Shown in pieces: positions 469 through 3,526 of a DNA stretch of 64,000 nucleotides. Location: assembly GCA_949299565.1 (NCBI GenBank), contig OX437086.1:944099-1008098 (forward strand), written 5' to 3'. The notes beneath the pieces are model-generated. The model was not told the DNA's origin, made no database searches, and was given only the letters and a program-made list of their open reading frames with translations. The translations under genes and the position numbers were made by a program. How positions within the stretch are numbered: the stretch's first letter is position 1; each line of letters starts with the position of its first letter. This DNA is from an uncultured Bacillota bacterium. GTDB taxonomy: Bacteria; Bacillota_I; Bacilli_A; RFN20; CAG-826.

Positions 469-3096
469 CTATTTGAAATCAATAAAGTTTTTCATCCTCT
501 TATCATTTTTGTTTACAAAGGATTTCCTTCTGGCGCGGATCAAGACTTTATAACCTTCTTCGCGGCGTGTGTATATTGAGGTAAACGATGGAAAAATCTT
601 ATTAAGCTCTTTTTTAAGAATATATACATCAGATTTAGTGAGAGAAAAACAATCAGGACAAGAAAAGACATATTTATAGTCTGGCATGCCTAACATATTC
701 CTCCTGAGAAGCAGATATCGCGGTTCCTCAATTGGGGAGAACAATTCCTTTATGGCGTCCATAAAAAGGCTTTGTTCGTGGAAGGTAGCATTCTCTAATT
801 TCAAAGAAAAAATTCTCTTCGTCTCATCGGATTCCACTCTTATTTCAGATTCCTTATCTATATATCCTCTGCTCACCATAGCCTTATAAAGAGAGTTTGC
901 CACTAAACGAAAGGAACGATTGGGATCATGGTGAAGGATTAAGTAATAAAGACCTCGTGAGGCAAAGGCAAGAGCAAATACTGCAAGAGCGACAAGAAGA
1001 GTAGAAAGAACGCTCAGCTCCACGCTTTGAAAAAGAGCCCTCGCGAATGATGATATAGCGATACTAATGGTTAAACTAACAATATAGAGAATCGAAATTG
1101 AAATAGCGTTTACAAAGGAAAAAGATGGGATTTTGGCCTTCTTTTCAAAAGCAGCCTTAAAATAGGTATGACCATCATATTTCGCCAAGGCATTCTCCCA
1201 AGTCTCAAAAAGTTTCTGCCTTTCCCGACTTTTAATAAGCATCTCTTCGTTGACTGATTTAAAATTCTTTTGGGAGAACTTTTTCAAGATGGTAACTCTC
1301 TCAATTCCGCTTTCTAATTCTCCTGTTTCGTAGTTAGGACCGATGAAACATTTAAAACGCCTCTTAAGGGTGGTTAAATCTTCTGAAATGTCCTCTTCCT
1401 CTCCGCTCTCAAAATTATTTTTCTCTGAAAAGTCACCCTCTGTTTCAATGGTAACTAAATGAAAAATATTCGCGGTTTTATTTGGATGATTTTTATCAAT
1501 TCGGATGGCTCTTCCCCGCATTTGATTAGAAAGAACGAAGGAACCAATGTAACTTGCCATTATTAAAGAATTGATACAAGGTGAGTCGTACCCTTCGCCT
1601 AAAAGCGACTGGGTGCCAATCAAAATATTTATAAGACCTTTTTCGAATAATCGCGTGACGATTCCAACTTTTTGTTGGTTGCTTCCTTCAAAAGAAAAAA
1701 CGGAATAACCGGTATCGCCAAGTTCCTTTTCTTTAAAAACGACAGCTTGTTGTTTAAATTCCTCTTTAACGCCTTTAGGAAGAAGAATAAGTGCTCCAGA
1801 AAGGACGCCAATATTTCGGTATCCTTCCCGCCGGAGCGTCTCAAAAATCGAGACAATCGAAAGATTTTGAAATCCTTCCTTCGTTCCTATTTTTCGCATA
1901 TCCTCTTTCTTGATGAAATCAGTCAAGATTAATAAGCGAAGGTTTTCTTTCATGCTTTCAATTTCGCTTTCAACTATTTCAACAATGCTTTGCAATTTGC
2001 CAATAGAAGAAATCATTCTCCTTTTGAGGGAATCGCTGAGAGTGAGTTCAATTCCAAGGCGAGACATTACTCCGTGTCTCCTAAGAATGATTTCAAGTTC
2101 CTTCTTCTCCTCTTTCTTCAACAGCCTTTCGTCTTTAAGAAGAAAGTCATAAACTTTCGCGATGCTGTTATGATTGAGTCTATAAGGAAAACCTTTTAAC
2201 TTTCGATAAATCTTTTTGTCATAAGGAAATCCGTAAGATTTTAAATATGCTTCTACTAAAAAGAAGAGATGAGCTTTCCCGTAGACATAGGATTCATCTT
2301 CTCGATAGATGGCGCGGATTCTTCCCGCAAGTTCATTGAAGAAAAGGAGCTTATTAGTTTCATCGATGGCCTTCTTGACTTCCTCACGGTATGCCTTGAA
2401 AGCCTGAGTTTCTTCCTTAGAGGGCTTGTTAAAATAAATATAATCTTGATGTGGGCAGAGTGTCTTTTCCTTGACAAGTTCAGGAACAAAAATTTCTTCA
2501 TCGATTTCACCGCACGTTTCAATATACCTTTTCCACTCCGAGGCATTAGCATCATATGGAGGTGTGGCCGTCAAAGAAAGAATCGTCACGTCTTTCGACA
2601 GTTTTGCTAGAAATTCGTTCAAAGCTTTCTGCCATTGATTTTTGAGGTGATGAGCCTCATCAAGGCATATCGTCTTAATGCCTTCATTTTGAAGGATGGT
2701 GATGATGTCAAGTTTAGAGAAATCGTCCTCCTTTTCTCTGACCATAACTTTTTTCATCGTCGAATAGAGGGCTTGATAGGTAATAACGTTCACAAGCTTA
2801 GGCTTATTAAGATCATAAGAAATATAGTTTTCTACTGGAGTTTCTTCATCTAAAAACGCTTTCTTAAAACGTTCGCCCCACTGGTATTTAATTGTCGTTG
2901 TAGGAGTCAAAATAATCGCCTTATTATTGAGACGGCGAATCAATTCCAGCCCTAAAATTGTTTTTCCAGAGCCCGGAGCGGCTACAATATTGATTTTCTT
3001 GTCCAAAAGATATTTGCCACTATTGGAAAGAACTCTCTCTTGATATTTTCGGAACGTGCCGTGAAAGTAGACGTTTGCAAATAGATTTTCATTCAT
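469..3096 (-). CDS. SF2 DEAH-type helicase with C-terminal membrane hairpin and extra domain
   Basis: An 875-residue superfamily II helicase/translocase. Motif I is AAPGSGKT (residues 39-46), motif II DEAH (146-149), motif III SLTATPP (174-180), and motif VI QMRGRAIR (525-532) in the second RecA-like domain. Long charged segments at about 200-400 probably form an insert between the RecA lobes. The unusual part is after the helicase core: two hydrophobic stretches at about 660-683 and 694-712 look like a membrane hairpin, followed by a soluble tail of about 150 residues. I do not know a characterised helicase with this architecture. No nuclease, methylase or defence gene adjoins it. It is monocistronic with its own promoter. 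DNA or RNA unwinding or translocation follows from the motifs; membrane anchoring and any repair or defence role are inference. Confidence 0.8.
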   Translation of the reverse strand: MNENLFANVYFHGTFRKYQERVLSNSGKYLLDKKINIVAAPGSGKTILGLELIRRLNNKAIILTPTTTIKYQWGERFKKAFLDEETPVENYISYDLNKPKLVNVITYQALYSTMKKVMVREKEDDFSKLDIITILQNEGIKTICLDEAHHLKNQWQKALNEFLAKLSKDVTILSLTATPPYDANASEWKRYIETCGEIDEEIFVPELVKEKTLCPHQDYIYFNKPSKEETQAFKAYREEVKKAIDETNKLLFFNELAGRIRAIYREDESYVYGKAHLFFLVEAYLKSYGFPYDKKIYRKLKGFPYRLNHNSIAKVYDFLLKDERLLKKEEKKELEIILRRHGVMSRLGIELTLSDSLKRRMISSIGKLQSIVEIVESEIESMKENLRLLILTDFIKKEDMRKIGTKEGFQNLSIVSIFETLRREGYRNIGVLSGALILLPKGVKEEFKQQAVVFKEKELGDTGYSVFSFEGSNQQKVGIVTRLFEKGLINILIGTQSLLGEGYDSPCINSLIMASYIGSFVLSNQMRGRAIRIDKNHPNKTANIFHLVTIETEGDFSEKNNFESGEEEDISEDLTTLKRRFKCFIGPNYETGELESGIERVTILKKFSQKNFKSVNEEMLIKSRERQKLFETWENALAKYDGHTYFKAAFEKKAKIPSFSFVNAISISILYIVSLTISIAISSFARALFQSVELSVLSTLLVALAVFALAFASRGLYYLILHHDPNRSFRLVANSLYKAMVSRGYIDKESEIRVESDETKRIFSLKLENATFHEQSLFMDAIKELFSPIEEPRYLLLRRNMLGMPDYKYVFSCPDCFSLTKSDVYILKKELNKIFPSFTSIYTRREEGYKVLIRARRKSFVNKNDKRMKNFIDFK

Positions 3097-3143: not shown

Positions 3144-3171
3144 ATAATAAGGCTGTTTTTAACATCGTCAA
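3144..3171 (-). promoter_or_regulatory. Candidate sigma-A promoter of the helicase gene
   Basis: On the minus strand TTGACG (3166-3171) is followed after 16 bases by TATTAT (3144-3149). The predicted transcript starts about 40 nt before the helicase ATG. An AGGA motif lies about 10 nt before that ATG. Confidence 0.55.
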
Positions 3172-3365: not shown

Positions 3366-3441
3366 TGGTGGCCCAAGGCGGAATCGAACCGCCGACACAG
3401 GGATTTTCAGTCCCTTGCTCTACCGACTGAGCTATCGGGCC
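3366..3441 (-). tRNA. tRNA-Phe(GAA)
   Basis: A complete cloverleaf of 76 nt with encoded CCA (3366-3368). The anticodon loop CTGAAAA gives GAA; the acceptor stem is GGCCCGA/TTGGGCC. It lies 8 nt after tRNA-Asp on the same strand, so the two are probably one transcript. Confidence 0.95.
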
Positions 3442-3449
3442 ACTATTTC

Positions 3450-3526
3450 TGGCGGACCATACGGGATTCGAACCCGTGGTCTCCTCCGTGACAGGGAGGC
3501 ATGTTAGGCCGCTACACCAATGGTCC
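3450..3526 (-). tRNA. tRNA-Asp(GTC)
   Basis: A complete 77-nt cloverleaf with encoded CCA. The anticodon loop CTGTCAC gives GTC; the acceptor stem is GGACCAT/ATGGTCC with discriminator G. First gene of a two-tRNA unit with tRNA-Phe. Confidence 0.95.

Follow-up and report, generated by a model that had tools for sequence, protein, structure and literature searches.

SF2 helicases are already well known, and several of their groups resemble the protein described here. XPB/RAD25 and the Hef/FANCM-type translocases (archaeal XPB, PDB 6p4f and 2fwr; Hef, 1wp9) have a ResIII-type pair of RecA domains with an extra domain between the two lobes. The RIG-I-like receptors (LGP2, MDA5 and RIG-I) combine a helicase that carries a helical insert with a C-terminal domain, and PbeA and the TIGR04095 phosphorothioation-restriction helicase have SF2 cores as well. 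In Bacillota, ComFA is a membrane-associated SF2 translocase. SF2 motors that are built into the membrane are few. Here we describe a gene in a 64,000-nucleotide stretch of DNA from an uncultured Bacillota bacterium (the window), whose predicted product joins such a motor to a membrane hairpin and a basic C-terminal domain; it is this architecture that is new.

The gene is complete, running from an ATG at 3096 to a stop at 471-469 (Table 1). The original prediction had its position right, while the strand is here corrected to minus, as a plus-strand reading of the interval contains 29 stops and was ruled out. In a Pfam search the product matched ResIII (PF04851) with 76.8 bits, where the cut-off is 22.5 (E=2.4e-21), together with Helicase_C, and with all SF2 motifs present it belongs to SF2. 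The motifs had been called intact from the sequence, and they are also near-invariant in the 93-96 aligned homologues (GSGKT, DE[AC]HH, TATPPY, GEGWDSP and QMRGRAIR). In the AlphaFold model of the whole protein (pTM 0.83, mean pLDDT 87.7) RecA1 is followed by a helical insert and then by RecA2; a linker leads from there to two long helices, behind which comes a C-terminal domain of mixed alpha/beta fold. Pairwise identity across the family differs strongly between these regions (RecA1 59%, insert 29%, RecA2 55%, linker 39%, hairpin 16%, C-terminal domain 36%), and the insert is variable in sequence while its length is steady (155-166 residues).

Table 1. Features of the helicase locus, with positions in the window.
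Feature	Position	Strand	Basis
ORF of predicted membrane-tethered SF2 helicase (875 aa)	469..3096	-	ORF and homologues
RecA1 domain, residues about 10-225	2422..3069	-	Pfam ResIII E=2.4e-21, invariant columns, model
RecA1 motifs: I GSGKT 42-46, II DEAHH 146-150, III TATPP 176-180	2422..3069	-	
Insert joining RecA1 to RecA2, all-helical, residues about 227-385	1942..2418	-	Model, regional identity, Hef/RLR/XPB-type fold matches
RecA2 domain, residues about 386-550	1447..1941	-	Helicase_C, alignment, model
RecA2 motifs: V GEGYDSP, VI QMRGRAIR 525-532	1447..1941	-	
Predicted transmembrane hairpin of two helices (661-688, 693-721) with hydrophobic cores at 664-682 and 694-712	934..1116	-	Prediction
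C-terminal domain (residues 722-875), basic with pI 9.6 and without known relatives	472..933	-	
Candidate promoter of sigma70 type (TTGACG-16-TATTAT), about 48 nt 5' of ATG	3144..3171	-	Consensus match only
tRNA-Phe(GAA), immediately upstream of helicase gene; accessory-gene site	3366..3441	-	
tRNA-Asp(GTC)	3450..3526	-	

Every family member examined has intact helicase motifs save one. This is the second of two tandem copies in Lachnospiraceae (RGIG6370; L071:12729-15334), which adjoins an intact copy and has degenerate motifs (DEPHH, TMRGIALH); its tail is apparently in a different frame, and it may be a decaying or a regulatory paralogue. At two other loci (L090:9890-12604 and L091:5287-8034) an N-terminal double zinc ribbon (CSECGQ...CTNCGAP) is fused to the helicase.

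The XPB/RAD25 and Hef/FANCM-type translocases include the best PDB sequence match (2.9e-06) and were also among the best fold matches. Compared with XPB and Hef, however, the window protein has neither a nuclease partner nor a nuclease domain, and its predicted membrane hairpin and new basic domain are additions. Against the XPB equivalog NF045503 it scored 34.9 bits, where 610 are needed, over residues 15-153 only, and five homologues behaved likewise. The XPF-type nuclease and HhH domain that follow the helicase in Hef were not found in the tail, which has no Pfam match and no invariant acidic set. A Foldseek search with the whole model matched three kinds of protein, RIG-I-like receptors, archaeal XPB and Hef, at E-values near 1e-13 but with low TM-scores, which places the relation to all three at the superfamily level. 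The RIG-I-like receptors gave the top E-values, over about 690 alignment columns, but with TM-scores of about 0.3, and unlike them the window protein has no CARDs, as its helicase core begins at about residue 11. Nor does it have their C-terminal RNA-binding domain, since the tail gave no confident PDB match and contains a single conserved Cys (C813). PbeA and the TIGR04095 helicase were matched partially (8e-15 and 2e-8), but the match is limited to the helicase part, the tail is absent from it, and neither a full-length PbeA nor conserved neighbours that could form a Pbe system were seen; the PADLOC matches were to generic helicase only. ComFA differs in its C-terminal architecture, its models in Pfam and NCBIfam were not matched and no com gene is a conserved neighbour. 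On these sequence comparisons the protein belongs to an unnamed, widespread gut-bacterial family whose architecture no curated family covers; the homologues that share its tail fall in no named helicase family, and our literature search found no paper describing it.

Between the linker and the C-terminal domain, the two hydrophobic segments noticed in the original prediction (about residues 660-712) appear as hydropathy peaks (KD 2.15 for the first and 2.51 for the second) and as modelled helices of 28-29 residues, with a moderate pLDDT of about 61-78. A 19-mer with a mean hydropathy of at least 1.85 is kept in 93 of 95 homologues, a second segment of this kind occurs in 91, and the best hydrophobic 19-mer is free of any charged residue in 81 of 93 members. 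The hairpin is at the same time the least conserved part of the whole protein. Hydrophobicity that stays constant while the sequence drifts is expected of a lipid-facing anchor and unlike a buried core, so that these stretches do not look like the interior of a globular fold. Directly after the second helix the family has a mean net charge of +1.9, which fits an N-in/C-in topology. The hairpin is thus real as a predicted membrane anchor, strong both in prediction and in conservation. It is absent from two alphaproteobacterial members, Tritonibacter among them, which retain the C-terminal domain; the anchor can accordingly be lost, and membrane attachment is not indispensable. This natural hairpin-less form offers a ready comparison for the role of the anchor. 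At one hairpin-less alphaproteobacterial locus a 145-aa gene with no Pfam family (L012:11552-11989) overlaps the start of the helicase gene by 4 bp. Possibly, its product is a partner that stands in for the hairpin.

The soluble domain proposed to follow the hydrophobic segments (residues about 722-875) is also found in the models, as a helix-b-b-helix-b-b-helix-b-helix fold, and the tail modelled alone (pTM 0.80, pLDDT about 80-97) agrees with the whole-protein model. In all members this domain is basic (pI median 9.8, minimum 9.0), compared with a pI of 5.8 for the helicase core, and its conserved residues include R793, Y794, P814, G848, R849 and R856. The family alignment of this domain contains no invariant set of acidic residues, as a nuclease needs, which makes a nuclease unlikely and binding of nucleic acid or acidic lipid likely. 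Searched apart from the core, the last 220 residues had no match in Pfam, NCBIfam or PADLOC, the sole tail match being a weak PHROG alignment of 35 residues to the hydrophobic stretch. The tail profile found nothing confident among PDB sequences, and Foldseek with the tail gave no confident match among PDB and viral structures. In 392 genomes of the phylum the profile of the domain matched only the helicase protein and decayed fragments, and the domain was not found in other architectures. The domain thus has no named family, in line with what had been suspected from the sequence.

The helicase gene is monocistronic by context, with tRNA-Asp and tRNA-Phe genes upstream and an oxidoreductase gene downstream. 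That it stands alone was thus correctly predicted, whereas a promoter of its own is plausible only: the candidate TTGACG-16-TATTAT lies upstream, but such sigma70-like sites show no clear excess in the region (13, with 9.9 expected from shuffled sequence). The tRNA pair (3366-3526), next to a rubrerythrin gene, marks a site whose accessory genes vary within the genus. In congeners the 3' side of the same pair is occupied by Phd/YoeB, an HTH protein, AAA_14/DUF4143 or ATPase_2 ATPases, or lipoproteins, often with the same genes (rubrerythrin or acyltransferase) on the far side. Across the family a tRNA gene lies within 500 bp upstream of 6 of 76 helicase genes, whereas for other ORFs the figure is 8 of 676 (p=0.001, on small numbers). 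No neighbour or partner gene is conserved across the family loci, and candidate integration repeats around the gene matched at chance level only. The neighbourhoods showed neither an excess of defence genes, the PADLOC signal among 142 near neighbours being no higher than among 142 distant ones, nor recurring com genes.

At least 520 relatives were found in a genome scan, among the matches listed mostly from Bacillota, plus spirochaetes and Candidatus Scatousia, and plasmid records add members from Paenibacillus and alphaproteobacteria. The cultured Kineothrix alysoides also has a homologue. The gene is present in 1 of 37 genomes of the genus, 11 of 196 of the order and 12 of 392 of the phylum, and in all five genomes of one other genus. 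In a tree built by a quick method the window protein groups with a homologue from a different family within the order, while members from its own family are in other starred clades, and spirochaete members are nested inside Bacillota. Both placements point to horizontal transfer. Nearly all close pairs have a dN/dS of 0.03-0.1, which shows that the gene is under strong purifying selection and not decaying; decay does occur elsewhere in the family, as in the broken tandem copy at L071.

We propose that the family consists of self-contained, horizontally mobile, membrane-tethered SF2 nucleic-acid translocases, and give this explanation as a whole a probability of roughly 0.4. With an N-in/C-in hairpin, the motor and the basic domain would both lie at the cytoplasmic face of the inner membrane, where the basic domain may grip nucleic acid (or else acidic lipid) and movement powered by ATP would work on nucleic acid situated at the membrane. 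As a guess, put at somewhat under even odds, the most likely use would be a one-gene defence that targets nucleic acid brought in by phages or plasmids. Since no nuclease signature is present, such a defence would need translocation or signalling rather than cutting, and it might strip or block nucleic acid at the site of entry or turn its detection into a perturbation of the membrane. Of the original interpretation the architecture stands, an SF2 translocase with a membrane hairpin and a further C-terminal domain; among the roles it suggested, which were DNA uptake, segregation, defence and the anchoring of RNA processing, defence is favoured only through the accessory behaviour of the gene, namely patchiness, transfer and the tRNA hot spot, and the neighbours give no signal. 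Against defence, the adjoining genes are ordinary housekeeping genes, and in some lineages the gene seems stable and vertical (5/5 in one genus, very low dN/dS), where a physiological role suits equally. More speculatively, the family may represent an undescribed, widespread class of single-protein membrane-tethered nucleic-acid sensors or translocases whose insert resembles that of the Hef/RIG-I-like receptor group and whose basic fold is new. They would catch incoming nucleic acid at the inner membrane, or turn its detection into membrane perturbation. Each member joins a motor, a predicted anchor and a new fold in one gene; should it guard or move nucleic acid at the membrane, the whole system could be transferred to laboratory hosts as a single gene.

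Among other functions, a role in envelope stress keeps the best, though low, chance. The helicase would then work with phage-shock-type membrane-maintenance machinery and couple the state of the membrane to the handling of nucleic acid there. In one ruminant-gut Clostridia clade (L081, L086, L087, L091 and L094) it adjoins a cluster of Band-7/SPFH plus zinc ribbon, DUF4428, zinc-ribbon, TPM and DUF6935 genes, two family members carry an N-terminal zinc ribbon, and in Tritonibacter DUF4178 and DUF350 genes are nearby. Band-7 plus zinc ribbon, TPM, DUF350 and DUF4178 are known as neighbours of phage-shock systems and partners in membrane stress, in a survey that mentions no helicase (PMC11237479). 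However, the apparent association comes from two lineages only, the Tritonibacter genes lie on the strand opposite the helicase, and genes of this kind are absent around the window gene and at the remaining loci. The loci with phage-shock-type DUF350 and DUF4178 genes near the helicase (L012 and L015) belong to a lineage distant from the Clostridia clade.

It is rather unlikely that the protein is a motor for DNA uptake or transfer that pulls or unwinds single-stranded DNA entering via ComEC or a conjugation channel, as its likeness to ComFA, likewise a membrane-associated SF2 translocase, might suggest. ComEC was detected in 10 of 11 helicase carriers and 119 of 185 non-carriers in the order sample, a weak trend, but ComEC is common anyway, many of its matches are weak and in one carrier (G059) it was not detected. 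Moreover, no com genes recur beside the helicase, and 36 of 37 congeners do without it. About as little can be said for a membrane-anchored RNA helicase that aids RNA decay or processing at the membrane, where RNase Y is bound in Bacillota. The basic C-terminal domain and the RNA-binding RIG-I-like receptors among the closest solved folds would suit it, but the sequence matches XPB/ResIII-type DNA translocases and not DEAD-box RNA helicases, and the distribution is too patchy for core RNA decay. Least probable is a soluble helicase of which the hairpin-less alphaproteobacterial form would be the basic design and the hairpin a hydrophobic element for dimerisation or packing, since the Tritonibacter protein and the moderate pLDDT of the hairpin are outweighed by helices of 28 residues, the charge-free 19-mers, sequence conservation lower than anywhere else in the protein, and positive charge where the cytoplasmic side is expected.

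A phage origin of the family was rejected, as the relatives on viral contigs have only the generic helicase core in common with it. Two full-length matches labelled 'Bacteriophage sp.' were likewise not accepted as phage genes, being short, unverified faecal scaffolds. These records (MT836806.1, L013; MT838455.1, L014) look bacterial and are probably mislabelled; the first also carries apparent amino-acid ABC transporter genes.
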